DNA from: Roseovarius sp. MMSF_3350
GTDB lineage: Bacteria; Pseudomonadota; Alphaproteobacteria; Rhodobacterales; Rhodobacteraceae
DNA: 64,000 nucleotides
NCBI RefSeq assembly: GCF_030733425.1
Contig: NZ_JASHIZ010000004.1
Coordinates: forward strand, 124,001-188,000
Direction of reading: 5' to 3'
The notes below the pieces were generated by a model. That model was not told where the DNA came from. It saw only the letters and a list, made by a program, of their open reading frames with translations, and did no database searches. Both the position numbers and the translations under genes were made by a program. Below, one piece after another: positions 1 to 14,933 of the stretch (within the stretch, counting starts at the first letter, position 1; each line of letters starts with the position of its first letter).

Positions 1-3000
1 TCCAAAGACTCTAGAAGTGACACCGTGCGCTCGGGACGAATATCCCAGTGTGCCAGACCTTCCAAAGTCGGCTGAAGGCCCTCGATCACGGAACTGAGCT
101 CGGTTTCTGTCGGTCGGTCCTGGTGTTTTCCGGCCTTAACGGTCTCGCCATAGGCCTCGCGCAGCAGCCGCGTCACTTCTGGCTGATCCCGGATGATTTC
201 TTGTCGATCGCCTGTCTCGCGGACCGCCAACAGCCGGGGTGGCAAATAGGACGCCTCGACCAACGAGGGCGATCGCCCACCTAGGGCAATGATTGTCATC
301 GGTGTCTTGCCGGCGAGAAGACACAGCTCAGCGCCCCAAAGGCTTTGAGGCTTAATGCGCTCCATAGACTGGAGGAGATCGTCTGGCAGCTTGCGCCGCA
401 TGTCTTCAACCAGATCGTAGAGGTTGTTTCGGCGAAGCGGCCGCGGTTTCTTGTGCTGCTCCAGGATCAGGTCTGTCAGATCGCCGGCAGAGAATTCCAG
501 ATACTCGTCTGCGAGATCTGAAGCACCGACCCCCGAAAGCAGAGCGATAGACTCGATGCGATCACGGCCTTTTTTGTCAGACGACAGGACGAGCCCAGGC
601 AGATCGAAGGTGGTGTAAGTGATCTTGGAATGCGGGCTGTCGATGCGGTCGATTCGCCCCAGGCCCTGGAGCATGCTCTTGATGTCCGAAGTAACGCCGA
701 CGATGCCCAGGGCGCGTGCGCGCTGGAGGTTGATGCCTTCCGCCATTTGAAAGGTCATGAACATGGCTCGGCGACTGTCGTCGGACGTCTTCTTGCCGTC
801 GAGAGCCAAGTATTCTTGGGCTTCTGCACCATTTCGAGCGACGGTAATGCCGGTACCAGGTCCCAGTTTGTGATTGGCAGCCACAAGGATCACATCGGGT
901 TTTGGGCCCTTGCGGGAAGACAGAAGGCGCGCGTAGACCTCCAGAACGCCAATCCGTTCAGAAAGGAAAATCACTTGCCGATGCTGATTCAGCATCTCCG
1001 CCATATGTTCGGCGCGCTGCTCATCGATCGCATCAAGTTCCGGGCTCTGCAGCAATTCACCGATACGGTCGCAAATCGGCGTCGTCGAGCGTTTGTCGAG
1101 AGGGAGCTCGCCGCTCTTCGGTGTAATAGTGATCGTTGCGGTCTTCCCACCGCGGCTTTCACGTTCTGAGCGCCTAAGGCTCTCGCCAATCGACGTGCGG
1201 CCGCGCGCATCTGCATCTGCGGCCCGCCTGCGTTCCCAATCTTCCCGGGCGAAGGTGATTGACGACCTCAAGATCGCCAGAAAGTTCCGAATGTGGATCC
1301 GCGCCTTGTCATGAAAGCGGACTTCCGTATGACCTGCTCGTTTTGGGTCGGCAGATACAAGGGTTGTACCTGTCGAGATGCTCTCAGCCAGTCTTCTGAT
1401 TTCGTCGAGGATGGCCGATTGTGCGGGCGTGAGTTCAGCGTCTATCCGGATGCTTTCGATCTCAGGGTACGCGTAGATGTCTGGTCCGCGTTTCTTGGAC
1501 TCTCCGACGCAATGGCGCTGACGCCGAACCACATAGGGTGCCAATGCATCCGCCATGTCGGCTTGGATTTCGCGCGGATCGAGCCGCTTGCCCGCAAGTC
1601 GTTCTTCTGCGTCTTCGATTGGTTGGGCGAGGTCTGCTTCGGACAGGAACATGTCTTCCATGCCAGACCGCTGACGATCCTCGAAGTTCTGCTTAAGAGT
1701 GCGGAGAGCATTCAACTCTGATGCTCTCTCGCGTCCTCGCTTGAGGTTGTCGTTGATCCTCGCTGTGATTTCGGGGGGCACATAGATCGAGGCGCGTCGT
1801 TCATGAAAGGCGAGCAATCCATCTAGGCCCTGGTTCCCCATCAGGGTCGCTGACAGGCACGAAGTCCAGATCGCAGGGCTTTGTTCGAAGACGAGGGAAC
1901 GTCTCGACGGGGCGAGATAGCGGGAGTTCAATCGATGACTCTCGTCCACGATCATGGAAGCGGAAGATCGGACGCCTCGGTTGATCTCCTCAAGTTCCTC
2001 GGCCTCTTCGCCTTTGCTGCGTGAAAGATGGCTGTGCTTGATGAGATTGAGGTTTGCTGGCTTGCTCTTGTCCCAATTGCGAAAGACGCTGGCCGGAATG
2101 ATGCCGAGCGCGCCATTGCGCGTTTGGTCAGGACGTTCATTCCCATGTCTGAGAACGACGCTCGAGTGCATCGTCGGCAAGACAGTCGCCAAGTGCTTTC
2201 CGATGTCGGTCTTTCCTGCACCTGTCGGTGCTTCGACAAATGCAAACCCGTGTTCGTAGGCTGTCCCCGAGGCTTCGTAGACGAGATCGGTCTGAAACGG
2301 CAGCGGCGGTCGCCCAGCGGCGCCGTCACCGCTAACACGCCAGGGCGAAAAGGATGTCATTTCGTGAACCGTTCGGGCGAGAGCTTCTTCGGCGCTCACG
2401 GGTCGCAGAAGGGCACGCAAGATCTCAAGAGCCTGTTCGGTCCAGTCGGTGCCAAGCGTCCAGAAGTCTTCAGCGACCGCAAGACGCGATGTGGCAAGAT
2501 CGGGGAAAGCTTGAAGATCGTCGACGTACTCGAGGTTGCGTCTAAGGCCGCCGACCGAGAAGTTGGCGCTGCCGGCGAGCGCGCCTGCGTCACTGATGAA
2601 GAGCTTCGCGTGAAGCATCGCGTGGGTGCGCCCGAACCGCTCCCGAGCTAAATCACTATCGAAGATACGAAGCGAGATCGCTCCCGATGCGATCGCATCG
2701 TAAGCAAGGACAGCCCGCAACTCGTCGAGTGAGCGTAGCGAAAGCCCTCGCGTTTCAAGGAAATAGTCCCGGGCCTCTTCCGAGAGCCCGCGTCCGCTTC
2801 CTTCGAGGCGGCCTTGGTTGTCGGTATTCGTTCCAAATATGATCCGGATCGTTTCAGGGGGCTCAGATACAATGCTGGGCCGAACACGAAGGATGATCGA
2901 CATCGCGGACAAAAAGTCCTGATATCCGGTCACGACGAGAGCGTTTGGTCCGTTCAGATTGCGCTCAACGAGTTCTCGGACAGATCGTTCCCCATTAGTC

Positions 3001-3140
3001 GCCCAGACCAGTTTATGGTCGGTGGCGCTTTCGGCCGAGGGCGTTGGCTCAACATCGACGTCCACAGCCTCTTGCTCGCGTTCCTTGGAACCACGAAACA
3101 AAAACCTTGATATGAAACTGTCTGCTCGCTCGCGCGCCAT
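1..3140 (-). CDS. PLD-nuclease/SF2 helicase fusion protein (partial, 3' end off window)
   Basis: The frame is open from ATG 3140 to the left edge (1,046 codons, no stop), with GAGGTGA just upstream of the ATG. Residues 1-260 include a phospholipase D-type motif HxKxxxxD (H177, K179, D184) followed by GSANFS, as in NgoFVII/DrmC-type nucleases. A superfamily 2 helicase core follows: Walker A APTGAGKT (K310), DESH box (D399-H402), an SAT motif in SCLSATLMG, and a motif VI QGLGRIDR at 825-832. PLD-helicase architectures are known among restriction and anti-phage proteins such as the DISARM components, where the two parts are separate. Only one HKD motif is seen, so a dimer may be needed for cleavage. 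It lies downstream of the recombinase/ParB operon on the same strand. A defence role is inferred; a role in element maintenance is the alternative. Confidence 0.75.
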   Translation of the reverse strand, partial: MARERADSFISRFLFRGSKEREQEAVDVDVEPTPSAESATDHKLVWATNGERSVRELVERNLNGPNALVVTGYQDFLSAMSIILRVRPSIVSEPPETIRIIFGTNTDNQGRLEGSGRGLSEEARDYFLETRGLSLRSLDELRAVLAYDAIASGAISLRIFDSDLARERFGRTHAMLHAKLFISDAGALAGSANFSVGGLRRNLEYVDDLQAFPDLATSRLAVAEDFWTLGTDWTEQALEILRALLRPVSAEEALARTVHEMTSFSPWRVSGDGAAGRPPLPFQTDLVYEASGTAYEHGFAFVEAPTGAGKTDIGKHLATVLPTMHSSVVLRHGNERPDQTRNGALGIIPASVFRNWDKSKPANLNLIKHSHLSRSKGEEAEELEEINRGVRSSASMIVDESHRLNSRYLAPSRRSLVFEQSPAIWTSCLSATLMGNQGLDGLLAFHERRASIYVPPEITARINDNLKRGRERASELNALRTLKQNFEDRQRSGMEDMFLSEADLAQPIEDAEERLAGKRLDPREIQADMADALAPYVVRRQRHCVGESKKRGPDIYAYPEIESIRIDAELTPAQSAILDEIRRLAESISTGTTLVSADPKRAGHTEVRFHDKARIHIRNFLAILRSSITFAREDWERRRAADADARGRTSIGESLRRSERESRGGKTATITITPKSGELPLDKRSTTPICDRIGELLQSPELDAIDEQRAEHMAEMLNQHRQVIFLSERIGVLEVYARLLSSRKGPKPDVILVAANHKLGPGTGITVARNGAEAQEYLALDGKKTSDDSRRAMFMTFQMAEGINLQRARALGIVGVTSDIKSMLQGLGRIDRIDSPHSKITYTTFDLPGLVLSSDKKGRDRIESIALLSGVGASDLADEYLEFSAGDLTDLILEQHKKPRPLRRNNLYDLVEDMRRKLPDDLLQSMERIKPQSLWGAELCLLAGKTPMTIIALGGRSPSLVEASYLPPRLLAVRETGDRQEIIRDQPEVTRLLREAYGETVKAGKHQDRPTETELSSVIEGLQPTLEGLAHWDIRPERTVSLLESL

Positions 3141-3460
3141 TCCGGTCACCTCGCAAGCAGTCTAGCGGTTCAAATGATTCCTCCAACCCATTGAATTCGG
3201 AACAATTCGCACACGGTAGGAAAGATTGATGAGCCGGAACGTCTTTCCTTCGGGTCAGTCGCTCCGGCTCCCATGCGAGGTAATTCTCGCGAGTCTGGCC
3301 GAGTGGATAATCTCGGCGTGGTGGGCCCCGCACGGGATCGCCGCCATCCCCACCGCCGCACTTGATCCGCCCCACCGTGCGGCGTCTCCTACGGTCCCCG
3401 CGCTTCTATGGGTCCGGGTCCCCGAATGCAGCCCAGCCGAAATTGACCGAACTGCTCGGA
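3141..3460. other. Intergenic gap before the nuclease-helicase gene
   Basis: About 320 bases without a convincing gene on either strand; the short open frames here have no family-like sequence. An inverted repeat, CGCCGCAC (3354-3361) and GTGCGGCG (3377-3384), with a 15-nt loop, could form a hairpin between the ParB-like gene and the helicase gene, either as a terminator without a U-tract or as a protein site. The helicase promoter probably lies here on the minus strand, but I cannot point to clear -35/-10 boxes. Confidence 0.4.
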
Positions 3461-4360
3461 TTAGGAGGCCAGGGCCTCCGTCTCCGTGATCTTTTCGAAC
3501 TCAGGCAGAAACTCGGGATGATACATCTCTAGATACCGCGTGACGCGTGCATTGGTGATGAGCTTGGAGACGTAGCCACGCGCGAGAACCAGATCGAGGT
3601 GATCACTGCCGTATGTGTCCTCGACCAGGCGCAACTCTCGTTCCAAATTCGCGGACTCGCGCTCCATCAGCTCGAGTTGCTGGCGGGAGATCCCTTTCAC
3701 AGCTTTCGGCTTCTCCGGATCTTTCAACTGGCTGGCGGGCGTCGCAGCCAAAAGTGAACGGGCGTAATTGACGGTGTATTTGTTCATCGTCACCATCAAT
3801 TCTGCAGCCTCGATCTGACGCATCGGCTTCATCTTTTTGAGAACGCGGAATCCAGTGAGAGACACTTGCTTGTCCTTCAGGAGTTCAGCTGCCTCTGGAC
3901 AGATCCCATCCAAAAGCCTCTTCTTTTCTTGCAGAGATTTGACATTCACGTTGAGCGCCCGGGCCAGCCGCTCTTCAGGCACGCCGCGTTCGAGCGCCTT
4001 CAGGATCATCTTGTGTTCCTGAATGGTGGCAAGGCGGCTGATGCGCTTGTTGTAGGTGAAGGCTTCGTCGTCTGACGATACCTGACACGGCGCATTCTGC
4101 TCGCCGAGGTCGGTCAAGATCGCAAGTCGCACGTGCCCATCGAGCAGCATGAATTTCTCGGGATCGGATTGGTCGCGGACGACGACCAGTGGCTCGACAA
4201 GCCCGACTTCCTTGATGGAAGCGACGACCTGGCGGTATTTCACCGTGTCCTTGGTTTCTTTCCGAACGGCGTAAAGCGGGCAGATCTGCTCAAGCGGCAG
4301 CTGAATGAGATCTTTCTCAAACGCCATGTTGATCGATTTGGAGCGTCCGGATCGTGCCAT
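3461..4360 (-). CDS. ParB/RepB-like protein, second of the recombinase operon
   Basis: A 299-aa protein of the plasmid-partition RepB/ParB superfamily. The N-terminal half carries the ParB fold, with the nucleotide-binding box degenerated to DGHVR (74-78) where chromosomal ParB has GERR. The ENxxR motif is not recognisable; KRISRLATIQEH stands in its place. A helix-turn-helix-like stretch follows at about 120-150, and the C-terminal half (190-299) is helical and charged. The ATG overlaps the TGA of the upstream ParB-like gene by one base (TGATG), so translation is probably coupled. No ParA ATPase is visible nearby, so classical plasmid partition is unlikely. I infer a recombination- or island-associated DNA-binding role. 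Confidence 0.75.
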   Translation of the reverse strand: MARSGRSKSINMAFEKDLIQLPLEQICPLYAVRKETKDTVKYRQVVASIKEVGLVEPLVVVRDQSDPEKFMLLDGHVRLAILTDLGEQNAPCQVSSDDEAFTYNKRISRLATIQEHKMILKALERGVPEERLARALNVNVKSLQEKKRLLDGICPEAAELLKDKQVSLTGFRVLKKMKPMRQIEAAELMVTMNKYTVNYARSLLAATPASQLKDPEKPKAVKGISRQQLELMERESANLERELRLVEDTYGSDHLDLVLARGYVSKLITNARVTRYLEMYHPEFLPEFEKITETEALAS

Positions 4361-5250
4361 CAGAGGTCTCCCGTTCGAGCGGCCAGGCGGTCAGAGAGGT
4401 TCTTTGGAATCGTCGCCAATCCTTCGGCCCTGAGCAGGGTGACAAAGTTTTCGTCATTCAGGAGTTTGCGAAGGGCCTCCGTGATGAACATCAGCTCGTT
4501 GCGCGTTGCTGTCGCTTTTCGGAGCAGCACCTGCTTCTTTTCAACGTCGTTCTGATAGGTGCGGATCAAGCTTTCGACCGACAGCGTTCGTCTCTTCTTT
4601 CGGTCTGCGCTCGGTTGTCCTTTCCCGTATTGCTGACGGGCCTCGACTAGGCGTTTCGCGGCCATCAGTCGGCCTCCGCGCAGCTGGTTGTTCTCATAGG
4701 CCTGGCGCAGGACGTCCTGCACTTCCGTATCTTTTGCCTCAGCGATATCAACGGCAACGCTGACGGGAAGCTTTCCGCTCTCAACGGCTCTGAGCAGTCT
4801 GTGCTCACCGCTCTCGAGGAGCCGAAGGACACCGCGGACATACTTGAGAGAGAGCTGGGTCTTGCGCGCGATCTCCGGGCCAGAATAGCCGCGCTCCTTC
4901 AAGCCTTTGATATCGCGCAGAAGGTCGAGCGCCCGATGCTGTCGGCGTGCCAGGTTCTCCACGAGGCTCATCACCAGGCAGTCTTCGCTGCTGGCGTCGA
5001 TGACGATCGCCGGGATTTCTGATTGGCCAAGCTCCTGGAAAGCCTCCAGCCGCCCTTGGCCACAGACCAGATCGTATCGCAAGCCATCCTCGCTCTGTCG
5101 CGCGGCAACGGTGATCGGCCGTTTCAACCCGAGCTCGGCGATGTTGTCGACGATCTCTCTGAAAGCCTTTCGGTTCCTCACGCGCGGGTTTACCACGGTG
5201 ATGCGATCCATCGGGATCAATTCGGCGGCTTGGGGTTGCGCGTCAGCCAT
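4360..5250 (-). CDS. ParB/RepB-like protein, first of the recombinase operon
   Basis: A 296-aa ParB-superfamily protein, closer to canonical ParB than its downstream partner. It has a nucleotide-binding box VCGQGRLEAF (G64-R67), an ENLARRQHRALD motif at 98-109 matching the ENxxR region, and an HTH at about 121-145 (GYSGPEIARKTQLSLKYVRG). The C-terminal part resembles RepB C-terminal regions. It starts at ATG 5250, one base into the recombinase stop codon, and its own stop overlaps the next ParB-like start. The family often binds CTP and spreads on DNA; whether GQGR still binds CTP cannot be told from sequence. Two dissimilar ParB-like proteins behind a recombinase suggest a heteromeric complex. 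Confidence 0.8.
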   Translation of the reverse strand: MADAQPQAAELIPMDRITVVNPRVRNRKAFREIVDNIAELGLKRPITVAARQSEDGLRYDLVCGQGRLEAFQELGQSEIPAIVIDASSEDCLVMSLVENLARRQHRALDLLRDIKGLKERGYSGPEIARKTQLSLKYVRGVLRLLESGEHRLLRAVESGKLPVSVAVDIAEAKDTEVQDVLRQAYENNQLRGGRLMAAKRLVEARQQYGKGQPSADRKKRRTLSVESLIRTYQNDVEKKQVLLRKATATRNELMFITEALRKLLNDENFVTLLRAEGLATIPKNLSDRLAARTGDL

Positions 5251-6791
5251 CAGGCCACCTGCGGTACTGGGACGTGAACCGCCATGTCGAACAACCGGTC
5301 CAGCGTCTCAAAACGATAGGCATCGAGCGACAAGCCGTTGTGCTCGGCCAGGCGGATGCGGGGGAGGGTCATGTCGAGGCTCGGGAGCAGGTAGTAATCG
5401 AGCGGCCGTTGGTTGGGTCGGTCCATACGCACGGCAATCGTAATGTCAGGCTTTAGGCTCATGTCGAAGCGGATATTCCACCGCAGAGAGCCCGCATTGG
5501 TTTCACTGCATCGGACGATGACCAGGGAGGCAGTGAATTCGCCGTTGATGGTGAGCAGGTCTGTTCGGGGATGCCGTTCGACGCTGTCGCCCGAAGCTTC
5601 GATGCCGGCAATCGTCTCGGCGACAATGTCCGGGTGGAGCTCGCGCAAGCGCCGATTAATTTCGATGTACCTGTAGTCTCGATCTGGCTTGAACCCGACC
5701 AACTGGTAGGCGCGGAGCAGGCTTCCAAAACGGGATCGATAAGCGCTGCTTGAGGGGAGCGCTTCGGCTTCGTCTATGACGAGACCAGACAGAAAGCCCT
5801 CGGCCTCGAACACCTCTTTCAATCCCTCGAGCATTTCGTCGTCGGTGAGCTTGGTCGATCGCGCGCTGATGATGGCGTTGGCGGCTGCAAACAGATCCCG
5901 ATCAACGATCCCCTCGAAGGCGCCCTCGGCGCGAACCCAGATGTCGGGATCGTTTTGGACCCGTCGCTTCTTCAGTTTGAAGGAGCTCCGGTTCCAGACG
6001 TTGTTGCCGATGTATTTCTCGTTGACCAGGATTTGATGGACGGTCCCGCGGGTCCAGGCGCGGTCGAGGTCCGTTAGAATGCCGCGGATATTCAATGCCT
6101 CGGCGATTTCGGTCTCGGACTTTCGATCTACCACGAAGGCTTGGAAGATCTCTTGGACGATGCCGATCTCTTCGGCTGGGCCCGGGACAAGGGTGACACG
6201 ATCCGTCTGAATGCTTTTGTGCTCGCCACGCTCCAGAATGCCTTTCGCGACCCCATGCTCGTCGATCAGCATGCGCCGCAAGCCGAAGCCGGGCGGACCT
6301 CCCTGGCGATAGCCAAGTTCAATCAGGCGGCATTGGCCAGTGAAGACCTTCTGCGAAAGCTCGCGGCTGTACTCTCCCGCCATTGCGCGCTTGACGCCCT
6401 TGACGATCGTTGAGACCGGGCTGCCGTCGTTTTCGAACTGTTCGGCGCAGTAGATGACGGAGATGCCGGCGCGTTTGCAGATGTATTCGTAATAGGCGCT
6501 CTCGTCCGCATCCTGAAACCGGCCCCAGCGGCTGATGTCGTACACCAGCACGGCCTCGTAATCCGCGCGGCCGGATTGAATGTCATCGATGAGCTGCTTG
6601 AGCCCATCGCGGCCCTGGATCCTTAAGCCGCTCTTACCCTCGTCCGAATACGTGCGGACGATCTCGATCCCGCGCTGCTCAGCGTAATGCGCGATCGCGT
6701 CCGACTGGTTCTCGGTCGAATAGCGTTGGTGCTCGGTCGACATCCGGACGTATTGAGCGGCGCGCCGAGGCTGAGCTCCCCTTGGCGCCAT
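5250..6791 (-). CDS. Large serine recombinase
   Basis: A 513-aa serine recombinase that would cut and rejoin DNA at attachment sites. The N-terminal resolvase domain shows QYVRMSTEHQ with the catalytic serine at S18, and VYDISRWGRF (D85-F92), the conserved Arg-containing helix. A recombinase zinc-ribbon-type region follows (about 165-290, GGPPGFGLRR and the NEKYIGN segment). The C-terminal 220 aa are less conserved. ATG 6791 was chosen with GAAGG just upstream; a TTG at 6824 would add 11 residues. It is the first gene of a three-gene operon with the two ParB-like genes. The cysteine pairs usual in the zinc ribbon of phiC31-type integrases are not evident, so this is the shorter alphaproteobacterial type. 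The function (integrase, invertase or resolvase) is undetermined. Confidence 0.85.
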   Translation of the reverse strand: MAPRGAQPRRAAQYVRMSTEHQRYSTENQSDAIAHYAEQRGIEIVRTYSDEGKSGLRIQGRDGLKQLIDDIQSGRADYEAVLVYDISRWGRFQDADESAYYEYICKRAGISVIYCAEQFENDGSPVSTIVKGVKRAMAGEYSRELSQKVFTGQCRLIELGYRQGGPPGFGLRRMLIDEHGVAKGILERGEHKSIQTDRVTLVPGPAEEIGIVQEIFQAFVVDRKSETEIAEALNIRGILTDLDRAWTRGTVHQILVNEKYIGNNVWNRSSFKLKKRRVQNDPDIWVRAEGAFEGIVDRDLFAAANAIISARSTKLTDDEMLEGLKEVFEAEGFLSGLVIDEAEALPSSSAYRSRFGSLLRAYQLVGFKPDRDYRYIEINRRLRELHPDIVAETIAGIEASGDSVERHPRTDLLTINGEFTASLVIVRCSETNAGSLRWNIRFDMSLKPDITIAVRMDRPNQRPLDYYLLPSLDMTLPRIRLAEHNGLSLDAYRFETLDRLFDMAVHVPVPQVA

Positions 6792-6915
6792 TGCGCCTTC
6801 GTCATGTCCGTCCCTCCAGCTCAAGAACCGAGCCTTTCATTTTTGGCCTTCGACAAGTCACGGGAAATGCCTGTGATTCCATGGGGCCGAAGCATAGACG
6901 CGGAGGTTCGGAAAA

Positions 6916-7302
6916 ATGTTTCCTAAGATGGGCAAGACTTTTCCAGATAACGACGAACGGAAGGTCGATCGATTAAAATACCAAATGGCAATTGCAGCCG
7001 CGCTGAAGCGGGAACTCGGCGGATCTCATCGGGCGATCAAGATCGTGATGCGCTGGACGGGTGTCTCGGAGCGAACGGCCAAGAACTGGCTTGCGGGCTC
7101 CCACGGTCCGGCTGGAGAGCACCTGGTCGAACTCATGCGGAATTCGAACCAGGTGTTGGCAGCCGTGCTCTCACTGGCCGGGCGAGGCGAGTTGAAGATA
7201 GGGGCGGGACTTCACGAAACCCGCGAGACCCTCCTTCAGTTGCTTCAGGTCTTGGACGGCATTCTCGGAACTTCCGAGGCAGGGGCTGATGAAAACGAGT
7301 AG
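6916..7302 (+). CDS. Small DNA-binding (HTH) protein divergent from the recombinase
   Basis: A 128-aa protein preceded by GGAGG at 6902-6906, nine bases before the ATG. The segment at about 32-66 (GGSHRAIKIVMRWTGVSERT, then AKNWLAGSHGP) reads as a helix-turn-helix, with recognition-like helix SERTAKNWL. The remainder is helical and ends in an acidic tail. I know the pattern from small uncharacterised proteins on alphaproteobacterial mobile elements, but no function is established. It is divergent from the recombinase operon with only about 125 bases between starts, so it may regulate the recombinase promoter or act as a directionality factor; this is inferred from position only. Confidence 0.7.
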   Translation: MFPKMGKTFPDNDERKVDRLKYQMAIAAALKRELGGSHRAIKIVMRWTGVSERTAKNWLAGSHGPAGEHLVELMRNSNQVLAAVLSLAGRGELKIGAGLHETRETLLQLLQVLDGILGTSEAGADENE

Positions 7303-7612
7303 GCAGCGTTTCGCGCGAGGTGCGCGGCACTCCTGAGTAGAGCGACGTTCAGTTTGAAACCGCTGCGCTCGATCAAAATCGATAAAATTTAAAAAGTTAG
7401 AATGTCGCCCGGAGTTCGCCGCGTGTTCTCGCGTGCCGCTATTTTTGTAGAGACTGGTTCGCATTGGTCTCCCAGCACCGCCATCCACTCTTTTGACAGC
7501 AATAGAATCAAACCCTTAGGGGTCAGATTGTCAAACCTTCGGACTGGGTTTGACAATGTTCGTTCGCGTTTCCTTCTCTTCCAGCGCCTTCATCCCTTCC
7601 GTTGCTAGTCGC
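7303..7612. other. Intergenic region with inverted repeat, island side of prophage scar
   Basis: About 310 bases with no convincing coding frame. It is AT-richer than its surroundings (7374-7400 is mostly A/T). It contains a perfect 11-bp inverted repeat at 7527-7557, listed separately, and a related half-site TTTTGACAGCAAT around 7491. The truncated AlpA-like gene ends at its right edge. This may be where the recombinase-borne island meets older prophage DNA. Confidence 0.4.
7527..7557. repeat. Perfect inverted repeat ATTGTCAAACC / GGTTTGACAAT
   Basis: The 11-bp arms lie at 7527-7537 and 7547-7557 with a 9-nt loop. A partly matching copy, TTTTGACAGCAAT, lies about 50 bases to the left. There is no U-tract, so an operator or a recombinase/ParB binding site fits better than a terminator. 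Located between the small HTH gene and the prophage remnant. Function inferred. Confidence 0.55.
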
Positions 7613-7804
7613 TTACGGTCGGCTGCGGCGGTGTATCGGGCTGAGGATGCGGCTATAAATCCGTTTCGGGCCGGGCATGAAGCCGTCGGCCATCATTCTG
7701 TCAAAGGTATTGGGAGACACCCCGGCATAAGCAGCCGCTTCAACCCGCGACAGAAGTCGCGCGGTCGGAGCGGGCAACGCTCTATGTCGGGCCGCGGTGT
7801 GCAT
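7613..7804 (-). pseudogene. Truncated AlpA/excisionase-like HTH protein
   Basis: A 63-aa frame from ATG 7804 with GAGG nearby upstream. The middle, LLSRVEAAAYAGVSPNTFDR followed by MMADGFMPGPKRIYSR, is a MerR/AlpA-type winged-helix start that in rhodobacterial prophages usually continues with about 25 more residues and precedes an integrase gene. Here the sequence changes after YSR into ILSPIHRRSRP and stops, and no integrase follows. I therefore call it 3'-truncated, probably by a later insertion or deletion. It begins seven bases after the DUF2190 stop, so both came from one phage transcription unit. It might still bind DNA. Confidence 0.6.
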
Positions 7805-7811
7805 ATCAACC

Positions 7812-8036
7812 TCAGAACGTGCCGTTGAGCCGGACGTGCACCGATGCGGACGGGTTGCCAGCTTCAGAGACGGCGATGCCAATCTTGGTGTTGCCGCTGG
7901 CTGTGCTGCTAACGGCCCCATCTGAGGTACGGAAATAGACCGCATCGCCAACGGCTAATTCATCGGTTGAGACTTTCGGCATTTCGAAAACACCGGCCGT
8001 GACCAGCACCAGCGGCTCGCCTATCTCAGCGTTGCC
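7812..8036 (-). pseudogene. 3' fragment of DUF2190 phage capsid-cement protein
   Basis: 74 codons are recognisable: EPLVLVTAGVFEMPKV, then LAVGDAVYF, then TASGNTKIGIAVSEA and HVRLNGTF. This is the C-terminal part of the DUF2190 family (capsid cement/decoration proteins, usually about 105-115 aa). The first 30-40 residues are missing. Upstream of GNAEIGEP the frame enters the antisense-free body of the acyl-CoA dehydrogenase in a different reading frame, so there is no proper start. With the AlpA-like gene it marks a prophage remnant. Not expected to be functional. Confidence 0.7.
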
Positions 8037-8982
8037 AGGAGGCCATCGCAGTCTTGCCAGTGGCATCCATGACAGTCGCCTGCATCGCCAGCGCACGGGC
8101 AGCGGCCAGTTCTGTGGCGCTGTCGGCCAGCATCCATTGAAGCCCTTGGAATTCCGCAATCGCATGACCGCTGACCTGCCGTTCCTTGGCATAAGAAATC
8201 GCGGCTTTCAGCGCGGCGTCCGCGATACCCGTCGCCTGCGCGGCAACCTCGATCCGGCCATTGTCCAAAACCTTCATCGCGGTTCGGAAACCCGTGCCTT
8301 CGTCACCCAGACGGTTTTCTTCCGGCACCCAGCAATCAAAGCTGATTCCAAAAACATGCCCGCCTTTCAGGCCCATCGTCTTTTCATGCGGCGCGACGGA
8401 CACGCCTTCGGTTTTCTTCGTTTCAACGATAAAGGCGCTGACGCCCCGCGCGCCCGCATCAGGGTCGGTCTTGGCATAGACCACCATGAAATCCGCCGCC
8501 CCAGCGTTCGAGATGAAGCATTTAGACCCCTTGATCCGGTATCCAGCCCCTTCGCGCTTCGCCGTCGTGCGCATGTCGGCGGGGTTCGATCCGGCCTGCG
8601 GTTCAGTCAGTGCAAACGCGCCCAGCGACGTGCCCGCCGCGGCATCCGGCAGAATGCGCGCCTGCAGATCAGCATCGGCGCCCAACAACAGAGAGTCCGT
8701 AGCCAGAAAATGCGCTGTCAGCATCGACCCGGTTGAGCCACATGCGCCCGCAATCGCCTCGACCGCCGCATAAAGGGCGGGGCCGGACAACCCGATGCCG
8801 CCGTGATCTTCTGGCAGGTTCAGACCCAGCAATCCCATTTCGGCCATCGCGTTCAGATGGACGGTAGCAAACAACGCGTTCTCGTCGATCTCCGCAGCTC
8901 TTGGGGCCAGAACCTCGGTCGAAAACCGCTCGATCTGCGCGACCAGTACGCGTTCATCATCGCTCATCGGATAAGTGGTCAT
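8026..8982 (-). pseudogene. Acyl-CoA dehydrogenase, 3'-truncated at the island junction
   Basis: 318 aa against roughly 375-390 for the family. The N-terminal and middle domains are intact: LTEPQAGSNPAD and KGSKCFISNAG are the flavin-binding segments, and the start of the C-terminal helical domain is present (EFQGLQWMLADSATELAAAR). The frame ends KTAMAS then WQR-stop, where family members continue for about 60-70 residues including the catalytic glutamate. The sequence after KTAMAS belongs to the DUF2190 fragment. It overlaps the upstream CoA-transferase gene by ATGA at 8979-8982. Probably inactive; the lost 3' end may sit at the far side of the island. Confidence 0.85.
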
Positions 8983-12857: not shown

Positions 12858-14933
12858 TCAGAGCGCCTTGCACAGGCGCAGGGCATCGTAGATGGCCGCG
12901 TGCGTGTTCCGGGAAGCGACGGCGTCGCCGATGCGGAAAAGCTGGAAAGCGCCTTCCGGATTGCGGGATAATTTTTGGGGACGTCCTTCGATCAGCGCGT
13001 CATAGTCGACCTCCCCCAGGTTGACGGATTCTGGTCGCAGGTCGAAATAGAGATCATCAAGCGGCCGCGTGCCATGGTTGACGACAACCTGGTCCACACG
13101 CCGTTCGCGGGTTACGCCGCCATAGTCGCTGTCGATGGTGGCGAGTAGCCCGTTACCTTCACGTCGCACGGCCTTGAGCTTCCACGTCACGGTAAAAGTT
13201 ACATCCCGCTTTTGCAGCTGCCGCATGGCGGGGGTCAACGACATGCCCATGACCTCTGGCGAAAAACTCCTGTCGCGCGTCATGATCTCGACAGTCGCAC
13301 CTGTGGCAGCGATCTTTTCAGCTGCCTGCAGGGCGGCAAAGTCGCCGGCCTCGTCATAGATGAGAACGTTCGTGCCAGCCTCTGTATCTCCGGCGAGGAT
13401 ATCCCAGGTGGACACCACAAACTCCTCTCCGCCGCCAGAAACCTCCGTATGGGCAAGCCCGCCGGTGGCGACAATCATCACATCCGGCCCGTGGGCAAGT
13501 ACAGTGGTGCCATTTGCGAAAGAATTGAAGTGGAACGTGACCCCCATTCGTTCGCATTCCTCAAAGCGCCATTGCACGACTTGGATCATCTCCTTGCGCC
13601 GATCGGTCTGTGCTGTCAGGCGGATTTGCCCCCCGGGATCGTTTGCCGCTTCGTGCACGATGACCTCGTGCCCGCGTGCCGCCGCCACGCGCGCGGCTTC
13701 GAGGCCCGCAGGCCCAGCGCCTATGATCACGATCCGTCTGCAATCAGAAGCTTTCGCAATCTCGTGCGGTTGCTCGGTTTCACGTCCCGTGGCCGGATTG
13801 TGCAGGCAGAGCGCCATACCGCCCTGATAGATCCGGTCGAGGCAATAGTTTGCCCCTACACAGGGACGAATGCGATGCTCTTCGCCGCGCATGACCTTGG
13901 CGATGATATGCGGGTCTGCGATATGGGCCCGGGTCATGCCCACCATGTCCAGCTTGCCGGACGCAATGGCATGTCGGGCCGTCGCAACGTCCTGAATCTT
14001 TGCGGCGTGAAAAGTCGGTATCTGCGCTTCTGCGCGAATCTCTCCGGCAAAATCGAGATGCGGCGATGAACGCATACCCTGAACGGGTATGACGTCGGTC
14101 AAAGCCGCATCGGTAGCAACGTGCCCCCGGATCACGTTCAGGAAATCCACCATACCGCAGGATTTGAGCCGTTTGGTGATCTCGATGCCGTCCGTACGCG
14201 AGATCCCGCCGGGCTTGTCTTCATCCGCCACGTACCGCAGTCCGACGATAAAGCTCTCGCCGACGCGCGCCCGGATGGCTTTCAGCACGTCCATCGCGAA
14301 CCGCAGGCGATCGTCGAACCCATTCGCGCCATACGGTCCCTCCAGCTGATTCAGCTGTGGCGACCAGAACGCATCCATCAGGTGGCCATAGGCCTCCAAT
14401 TCGATCCCGTCCAGGCCCGCGGCCTGCATCCGCTCGGCGGCGTCGGCGTAATCCTCGATGATGCGGACGATATCCCAGTCTTCCATTTTCTTCGGGTAGG
14501 CCCTGTGTGCCGGTTCCCTTGTATGCCCAGGGGAGAGGCTGGGCAGCCAGTCACCCTTGTCCCACCGCGTGCGCCAGCCCAAATGCGTGAGCTGGATCAT
14601 CACGGCGCATCCGTGCTCGTGGCAGTCATCGGTGAGTGCCTTCATGTGGGGCACGACCTCGTCACGATACGCGAGAATATTGTTGAAGGCTGGCGGACTG
14701 TCGCGCGACACCACCGCCGACCCCGCCGTCATTGTCAGCGCCACACCGCCTCGGGCGCGCTCCACGTGGTACGCACGGTAGCGCTCTGTAGGCATCCCGT
14801 CATCGGGGTAGGCCGGTTCGTGGCTGGTAATCATCAGCCTGTTCTTCAAAGTCAGGTGCTTGAGCTGGAAGGGCTGGAGAAGGGGATCGCTGATCAAGGC
14901 TGGCTCCTGTGCAGACAGTCTAACATTCCGCAT
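12858..14933 (-). CDS. Old-yellow-enzyme-type flavin/Fe-S oxidoreductase, N-methylproline demethylase-like
   Basis: 691 aa from ATG 14933 (a GTG at 14942 would add three residues). The N-terminal 350 residues form an FMN TIM barrel of the old yellow enzyme family. A Cys cluster for Fe-S follows (C358, C364, C376). The C-terminal half is an FAD/NAD(P)-binding module with VIIGAGPAGLEAARVAA. The overall layout is that of trimethylamine dehydrogenase, dienoyl-CoA reductase and N-methylproline demethylase; segments such as SHEPAYPDDGMP and CVGANYC-LDRIYQGG resemble the last as I remember it. It would remove N-methyl groups in stachydrine/proline-betaine catabolism, but the substrate is an inference. 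The second cysteine of the usual CxxCxxC is Ala. Divergent from a TetR regulator. Confidence 0.75.
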   Translation of the reverse strand: MRNVRLSAQEPALISDPLLQPFQLKHLTLKNRLMITSHEPAYPDDGMPTERYRAYHVERARGGVALTMTAGSAVVSRDSPPAFNNILAYRDEVVPHMKALTDDCHEHGCAVMIQLTHLGWRTRWDKGDWLPSLSPGHTREPAHRAYPKKMEDWDIVRIIEDYADAAERMQAAGLDGIELEAYGHLMDAFWSPQLNQLEGPYGANGFDDRLRFAMDVLKAIRARVGESFIVGLRYVADEDKPGGISRTDGIEITKRLKSCGMVDFLNVIRGHVATDAALTDVIPVQGMRSSPHLDFAGEIRAEAQIPTFHAAKIQDVATARHAIASGKLDMVGMTRAHIADPHIIAKVMRGEEHRIRPCVGANYCLDRIYQGGMALCLHNPATGRETEQPHEIAKASDCRRIVIIGAGPAGLEAARVAAARGHEVIVHEAANDPGGQIRLTAQTDRRKEMIQVVQWRFEECERMGVTFHFNSFANGTTVLAHGPDVMIVATGGLAHTEVSGGGEEFVVSTWDILAGDTEAGTNVLIYDEAGDFAALQAAEKIAATGATVEIMTRDRSFSPEVMGMSLTPAMRQLQKRDVTFTVTWKLKAVRREGNGLLATIDSDYGGVTRERRVDQVVVNHGTRPLDDLYFDLRPESVNLGEVDYDALIEGRPQKLSRNPEGAFQLFRIGDAVASRNTHAAIYDALRLCKAL

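Follow-up and report, generated by a model that had tools for sequence, protein, structure and literature searches.

Fusions of a phospholipase D (PLD)-type nuclease with a helicase are already known. MkoC of Mokosh type II joins a superfamily 1 (SF1, COG1112-like) helicase to PLD. In SauUSI-like type IV restriction endonucleases one chain runs PLD, superfamily 2 (SF2) ATPase, coupler and SRA domain, and ATP-dependent cleavage of modified-cytosine DNA is a further mark of these enzymes; the available portion of PMC7913695 describes nuclease domains that hold the SauUSI dimer together and target recognition that activates the ATPase. A Type-2 BREX-related system includes an N6-methyltransferase (N6-MTase), DUF499 and DUF3780, according to the available portion of PMC12839542. 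Here we analyzed a 64,000-nt stretch of Roseovarius sp. MMSF_3350 DNA (the window; C35:124001-188000 of the source genome), whose left end holds a gene with PLD and SF2 helicase motifs in one chain. We consider it likely that this gene encodes a single-chain PLD-SF2 defence nuclease and is cargo, lying behind a module of a recombinase and two ParB-like proteins (Rec-ParBa-ParBb) and then a conserved structured RNA. The protein is best read as representing a new family of restriction effectors that combine PLD and SF2 parts in a single chain, with a layout like that of SauUSI, and it probably destroys invading virus DNA.

The PLD-helicase and its relatives

The gene and its motifs are placed as follows.

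Window 1..3140, minus strand: PLD-SF2 helicase gene; ATG at 3140 gives 1161 residues, GTG at 3149 is an alternative start
Window 2529..2612, minus strand: PLD catalytic motif HAKLFISDAGALAGSANFSVGGLRRNLE, residues 177-204, from alignment and fold comparison
Window 2208..2228, minus strand: Walker A, PTGAGKT, residues 305-311
Window 1935..1946, minus strand: DESH box, residues 399-402
Window 645..668, minus strand: helicase motif VI, QGLGRIDR, residues 825-832

A preliminary description of the window had reported a single open frame with an HKD-type motif (H177, K179, D184), Walker A (K310), DESH and QGLGRIDR, running off the left edge. This is borne out apart from the D of HKD, with a residue numbering that fits ATG 3140. 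The flanking sequence left of position 1 continues the frame intact for 346 bp, stop codon included, for a coding length of 1161 codons from the ATG or 1164 from GTG 3149. The signatures HxK...GS[AS]NFS...NxE, G[AS]GKT, DESH and QGLGRIDRI all recur in every one of 19 full-length homologues, the most distant being 33-34% identical, which is more than chance would give; the count omits the broken or partial copies L027, L028, L031, L038, L040, L041 and L042. Invariant positions of a 14-row alignment include the PLD H, K, GSANFS, N and E, the Walker A lysine, DESH, SAT and QGLGRIDRID; L044, outside that alignment, reads GSSNFS. The aspartate once assigned to an HKD motif (D184) is not conserved: elsewhere in the family E, P, G or R takes its place, which leaves H, K, GSxNFS and E as the kept PLD set.

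Profile matches were weak. Pfam gave ResIII (E 0.0018) and PLDc_2 (E 0.012) for the window protein, and a scan with defence models gave DrmC (6e-5) and DpdK (9e-5) as the best matches of the PLD region; these matches span some 30-80 residues and fall far under the NCBIfam cut-offs (22 of 133 bits for the DISARM DrmC equivalog, and 18 of 100 bits). Across 14 members, Pfam (E ≤ 0.05) found DEAD in 13, PLDc_2 in 11, ResIII in nine and Helicase_C in four, and one DrmC model matched all 14 (E ≤ 0.01). With DEAD and ResIII the commonest helicase matches across members, the earlier label of SNF2-type is weakly shown. No model in the family and defence libraries used matches the family well, and the A1 profile found no credible match among sequences of solved structures (best E 0.052).

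We also compared a predicted, low-confidence model of residues 1-270 with solved structures, obtaining 101 chains at Z ≥ 2, of which 50 rows were listed, one per entry. All 50 matches listed belong to the PLD superfamily, judged by their titles and general knowledge of the fold. They include TrmB-type proteins, FAM83, NgoAVII-R (4rct), PLD3/4, Nuc, NucT, BfiI (2c1l), Zucchini, TDP1 and PPK1, at Z 3.3-6.5 and root-mean-square deviations of 3.7-6.9, mostly across model residues ~45-250. Such middling Z-scores carry little weight by themselves; it is the consistency on one superfamily that counts. A nuclease-type fold at residues 150-260, which the preliminary description had set as its test, is found among the matches listed for this low-confidence model. 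The motifs, the weak PLDc_2, DrmC and DpdK matches and the fold comparison together support a PLD nuclease and an SF2 helicase in one chain.

A search of the order (E ≤ 1e-20) matched 12 of 292 genomes, the source genome included. They represent 10 of 112 genera, and what G062, G071 and G146 carry are fragments. At class level (E ≤ 1e-15) the source genome alone matched among 385, and at phylum level (E ≤ 1e-8) two of 349 did, the source genome and G007 of the same family. No homologue was present in 50,697 phage records. A single viral contig carries one (L044, 56% identical), and further viral searches brought no second. In the searches made, the family was thus found solely in Rhodobacterales plus one viral contig. 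Relatives occur in Ruegeria, Roseobacter, Shimia, Seohaeicola, Defluviimonas, Phycocomes, Rubricella and others, with plasmid copies in Neotabrizicola, Pseudosulfitobacter and, as a fragment, Roseinatronobacter. A tree of 19 rows forms three groups of eight, seven and four rows (clades 1 to 3), the fork separating the first two being weakly supported. G090 and G007 each hold two different members; the second one of G007 has two stops.

The gene keeps company with defence genes. Ten large neighbour open reading frames (ORFs), picked by hand, were scanned with defence models, the system names being taken from the model names. Eight matched at E ≤ 1e-6: beside clade-1 copies, DruE of Druantia III (DruE3; L025, L023), ZorC and ZorD of Zorya I (L027) and SngC of Shango (L019); elsewhere, type I R and M (L044) and LmuB (L036). 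McrBC genes adjoin the clade-1 copy L022, and the L044 copy stands behind type I restriction-modification genes. It is from this company that the anti-phage or restriction role proposed in the preliminary description takes its backing.

In four clade-2 loci (L032-L035) the PLD-helicase is preceded, at a distance of 33-57 nt and on the same strand, by a DUF3427 gene, which is split into two ORFs in L034. L029 has such a gene at the opposite end of its record, which is annotated as linear, and no DUF3427 gene was seen in the sequence stretches examined for L026 and L044, the other clade-2 rows. The L032 gene has a PLD-ResIII-DUF3427 architecture and matches Protein Data Bank entry 7clg ('Putative helicase') at 1.2e-85. 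We take 7clg to be SauUSI. The length of SauUSI in the available portion of PMC7913695 agrees with the 953 residues of that entry. Because this neighbour is itself PLD-ResIII and matches 7clg, part of clade 2 appears, by predicted architecture, to pair two PLD-helicases in tandem, with a SauUSI-like gene directly upstream. The earlier expectation of a single-gene or two-gene system fits both arrangements, clade 1 having no fixed partner.

Left of the window in the source genome (L002 3894-10638) lie a gene for a DrmD-like SNF2 helicase with a HEPN_Swt1 domain and then a TmtA-like sacsin-ATPase gene. This pair, convergent with the PLD-helicase, is possibly a two-gene defence system. An exonuclease gene and a large helicase-type gene of the island (L003 17318-20000, L002 1-1699) have Ruegeria conchae relatives near a PLD-helicase (L024 19675-23486), the exonuclease being 92% identical over the part compared.

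The Rec-ParBa-ParBb module and the RNA behind it

Upstream of the PLD-helicase gene the window holds the following features.

Window 3231..3290, minus strand: two hairpin-like inverted repeats (3290-3275 and 3270-3231), between the RNA and the nuclease-helicase gene
Window 3298..3317, minus strand: hairpin ending the RNA element, GCCGAG-loop-CTCGGC, with no match to a terminator consensus
Window 3315..3423, minus strand: structured RNA element (core, model R1), ~108 nt, 37 nt past the ParBb stop
Window 3461..4360, minus strand: ParBb, with a weak ParB_N and a RepB C-terminal domain (PF07506)
Window 4360..5250, minus strand: ParBa, with ParB_N and a RepB C-terminal domain
Window 5250..6824, minus strand: Rec, a serine recombinase with Resolvase and Recombinase domains
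Window 6916..7302, plus strand: divergent 128-aa ORF, no Pfam match, helix-turn-helix-like by eye, found with the module in 20 of 20 loci

The RNA element is better conserved than the gene before it: G000 and nine other loci are 76-90% identical over the element, compared with 59-67% for ParBb DNA in the seven compared. In 32 distinct rows, 97.5% of cells are paired in a predicted structure of 31 pairs, and slid structures pair 23-43%. Two-sided changes amounted to 39 cells against 15 ± 2.5 in shuffled alignments (0 of 500), and pairs with such changes to six against 4.2 ± 1.0 (37 of 500). With 46 distinct rows, in an alignment fitted to the model, two-sided cells rose to 69 against 19.7 ± 3.5, and a further 36 distinct rows, also fitted, showed 13 two-sided pairs. 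Fourteen held-out copies, aligned with MAFFT and folded alone, gave the same main helices with six two-sided pairs. G-U cells numbered 139 and A-C cells 14, which argues that the ParBb-sense strand is mainly the folding one. Rfam 15, run on window 1-8100 with E up to 5, gave five matches, none over the element and all far below cut-off; Rfam on four loci likewise gave no match to it. By its predicted fold the element is a conserved structured RNA with strong covariation and no Rfam 15 match. A consensus scan of window 3000-3600 found no sigma-70 promoter and no T-run terminator. The two further inverted repeats are kept, with some changes, in seven aligned clade-1 sequences.

The RNA follows ParBb in 30 of 30 order-level loci returned by the ParBb search (the window's own included; L056 is cut by a contig end). 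Thirteen lower-ranked ParBb matches had no locus; two were checked (G146 C18 and G146 C33), and C18 has the RNA. Searches with the RNA model found it in 11 of 240 genomes of the class, the source genome included, where all 12 other matches lie directly after a ParBb match (in L117 and L124 to the C-terminal ~60 residues only). At phylum level it was in four of 200 genomes. Among the four non-own matches there, L134 and L136 follow ParBb, L137 follows a reverse transcriptase with a template repeat of diversity-generating retroelement (DGR) type, and L135 has neither. A DNA-pattern search found 35 IMG/VR contigs with the RNA. ParBb is present in 25, seven copies have less than 500 nt of upstream sequence (in six the contig stops there, in L165 the stretch examined does), and three (L153, L158, L160) have other genes or none upstream. 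In the whole plasmid collection a DNA search found the element in 10 records, against 89 with a ParBb match. Altogether the searches found the RNA in 12 families of one class, the source's own included, and more weakly in two genomes outside it. From the modules without RNA and the five RNA copies away from any ParBb match (L135, L137, L153, L158, L160), which rule out a strict linkage, we conclude that only some modules have the RNA and that its tie to ParBb holds in most cases but is not strict.

L024 has a second, diverged copy (14762-14869), which comes after the PLD-helicase and a gene with a PIN domain; immediately upstream of it there is no ParB gene. Outside the class, G778:C93 carries two copies (457-560 and 6546-6648; L175, L137) at a distance of ~6 kb, with a DGR reverse transcriptase and a template repeat between them. 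A relative of the G778 reverse transcriptase occurs only in L137, and we rejected the RNA as a general DGR part. Among the IMG/VR copies (L138-L172), 18 of 35 lie within 2.3 kb of a contig end, and eight of the 35 contigs measure 44-48 kb. The module may have prophages inserting behind it.

Of the 292 genomes of the order, 40 have a ParBb relative. All 20 fetched ParBb loci, like G000, carry Rec, ParBa, ParBb and the divergent ORF in order, and the PLD-helicase is absent from the ~13 kb behind the module in all 20; in L082, 50 residues of a 302-aa ORF match the PLD region. The cargo includes a TnsA/TnsB/TniB/TniQ set (L079), a Mokosh-like helicase (L090) and phage tail genes (L084). In L079 (5323-11085) the TnsA-like, Mu/TnsB-type, TniB and TniQ genes are convergent and stand just behind the Rec-ParB-ParB-RNA module; gene sets similar in size, and compared by size alone, are present in L077, L078, L082 and L083. 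When ORFs of 200 aa or more are considered, the nearest one downstream is convergent in eight of the nine loci L075-L083 and runs in the same direction in others, such as L085, L086 and L089. Since other cargo follows the RNA elsewhere, in either direction, a leader role for the nuclease gene is unlikely, and we rejected it.

On plasmids, the module was read in 10 records (two without annotation), with Rec, ParBa and ParBb in all 10 and the divergent ORF in seven. Its neighbours there are AbiEii and Fic genes (Agrobacterium C58), a type I R gene (Rhizobium AB2/73), phosphorothioation-linked genes (Methylibium and, by our own reading, Aminobacter), restriction endonuclease genes (Roseomonas, Sphingobium), metabolic genes (Variovorax) and conjugation genes (Marinibacterium). 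The pairing of PLD-helicase and module is therefore a cargo relation: the module is a general carrier with changing cargo and no fixed partner.

At window 7613-8982 lies an acyl-CoA dehydrogenase frame that is cut short at the C-terminus (the PF00441 match reaches 82 of 150). An excisionase-like ORF and a phage-like fragment, recognized by eye, are next to it. The island, roughly 40 kb in size, probably has its right edge here. Its left end (L003 1-3401, L130 91796-92998) has a second serine-recombinase-like gene, small ORFs and a ParB-like methyltransferase (by eye). A search for direct repeats at the island ends gave no match longer than 30 bp.

Readings of the locus

The reading we favour is a defence nuclease carried behind the module and its RNA. 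By analogy with SauUSI, target recognition would trigger ATP-driven translocation, and a PLD dimer would cut the invading DNA. The N-terminal PLD domain would probably dimerize to build the active site or sites, the SF2 ATPase would move on duplex DNA, and the C-terminal ~300 residues would probably select the target. What the analysis shows is an intact gene, conserved motifs, a PLD fold at low confidence and defence genes nearby; the dimer, DNA as its substrate, a target rule and an anti-phage effect are inferred. Rec may move or maintain the element and the ParBs may bind DNA, while the RNA may work with Rec or ParB, or mark the site behind which cargo exchanges. Most likely it acts with the module itself, either as an RNA made from the 3' end of ParBb or as a recombination or partition site that folds in single-stranded form.

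Several results weigh against this account. Folding energies of single RNA sequences are near those of shuffles (z -1.48 to 0.99 in eight copies), and variation in the element peaks at one codon phase (19 of 36 columns, against 11 of 37 and eight of 36). The RNA had no match at G146 C33, the third ParBb match of that genome (43% identity), and was absent from eight of the 10 plasmid modules, those of Sphingobium and Marinibacterium alone having it. For the protein, the model of residues 1-270 is of low confidence (mean predicted local distance difference test score, pLDDT, 43.8; predicted template modelling score 0.45), and a full-length model (L024 copy, 10 sequences) was unusable at a mean pLDDT of 39. 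DUF3427, SRA or another target-recognition domain gave no match in 14 members (E ≤ 0.05), where a divergent fold is possible; three clade-1 genomes (G000, G288, G256) have no DUF3427 gene; and a profile-profile comparison with a SauUSI-like alignment aligned 47 columns around the DEAH box at an unconvincing probability of 6.5. Two of the 10 neighbours, an 813-aa gene of L021 and an 825-aa gene of L023, matched no defence model.

The alternative that survives best, possible though on the unlikely side, is that the element after ParBb is a DNA site, for recombination or as a centromere, which folds as a single strand and is not an RNA. It sits at the boundary of module and variable cargo, L024 and G778 each have two copies, which bracket cargo in the former and DGR genes in the latter, about half of the IMG/VR copies are close to a contig end, and five copies lie away from any ParBb match. 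The asymmetry of G-U and A-C cells is unlike a duplex cruciform, yet still compatible with single-stranded DNA. A further idea, which we hold doubtful, makes Rec, the two ParB-like proteins and the RNA an RNA-assisted recombination machine that would create a cargo hotspot just behind the RNA. Defence genes, Tn7-like transposons and prophages would be gained and lost there, and the RNA would serve as cofactor or address for Rec or ParB.

It is improbable that the nuclease-helicase is an RNA-directed or repair enzyme of a mobile element, forming one functional unit with Rec and both ParBs. The intact module does stand beside the PLD-helicase, in the same strand and order, in four of eight full-length clade-1 copies (G000, L022, L023, L024). 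The broken copy L027 retains module fragments, and L020 retains the RNA alone. L025 keeps a piece of the downstream hairpin region, and the upstream sequence of L019 is 230 bp only. However, L021 has no module trace, nor have the clade-2 and clade-3 loci examined; all 20 fetched loci carry other cargo, the short match in L082 notwithstanding; and 311 bp with hairpins separate ParBb from the GTG start. An 'element-guarding' unit with the recombinase/dual-ParB operon, as first suggested, is unsupported, because the module is common without the PLD-helicase and the PLD-helicase occurs without the module.

We regard it as very unlikely that the protein replaces two subunits in DISARM or in some other multi-gene system already known. 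DrmC and DpdK are the best matches of the PLD region, and the DrmD-like SNF2 gene (L002 3894-7460) is two genes away; yet those matches are short and far below cut-off, the DrmD-like gene is on the opposite strand and clusters with no ORF of other PLD-helicase loci, and the homologous loci compared point to no fixed partner. Least probable of all is a short coding region with peptide ...KRGDRRRRRTVGRI..., which would account for the third-phase excess and a similar translated peptide in most copies, and leave a short coding role partly open, but lacks a conserved start codon (by eye), has a stop right before the peptide in three of 33 translations and internal indels of 1, 2 and 5 nt, and faces two-sided changes in up to 13 of the 31 pairs.

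The cargo reading adds a family of single-chain PLD-helicases, putative defence effectors to which the libraries of families and defence systems used have only weak matches. The odd recombinase/dual-ParB pairing is explained too, through a general carrier module with exchangeable cargo. The most surprising item is the module's structured RNA without an Rfam 15 entry; a unit that combines a recombinase with two partition-type proteins and an RNA makes a concrete, testable case for gene gain and swap in defence islands.

Comparison with known systems

We found no open-licence paper whose title or opening of the abstract describes the PLD-helicase family or the pair of module and RNA. DISARM, named in the preliminary description, is not the right family: the protein is one fused 1161-aa chain and not a separate drmC gene, it falls far short of the DrmC equivalog cut-off, and its neighbours vary between loci. 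Mokosh type II was also rejected, as no MkoC is among the matches and Pfam gives SF2-type domains.

For the module, the nearest likeness is tasParB of TIGR-Tas loci (PMC12045711, in the portion available), a ParB-like gene near a non-coding RNA array; unlike that array, the RNA here has one fixed fold without a variable guide.

For the protein, PADLOC PLD_Helicase and the NCBIfam phospholipase D-like anti-phage protein NF042964 are likewise, by model names, fusions of PLD and helicase labelled anti-phage. The window protein had no match to NF042964 at E ≤ 0.01 (curated cut-off 1100 bits), and the PLD_Helicase model was reached by four of 14 members (best 1.4e-4). The Type-2 BREX-related fusion of an HKD-endoDNase and a Swi2/Snf2 protein, as described in the available part of PMC12839542, shares an HKD nuclease N-terminal to an SF2 helicase in one chain. 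Of the partners given for that system, N6-MTase, DUF499 and DUF3780, none was seen among the neighbours scanned here, and no fixed partner was seen either. CglI and NgoAVII (PMC7913695, available portion) share a PLD nuclease with an ATP-dependent motor, and NgoAVII-R is among the fold matches; there the two are separate subunits, a PLD-B3 R protein and a helicase H, whereas here they are one chain, with no B3 or Z1 among the Pfam matches.

From the SauUSI-like enzymes, as laid out in the same portion of PMC7913695, the window family differs in a C-terminus without a DUF3427 (PF11907) or SRA match. What it shares with them is the layout: a single chain, an N-terminal PLD domain with a single HxK, an SF2 ATPase behind it in the same chain, and a C-terminal remainder.

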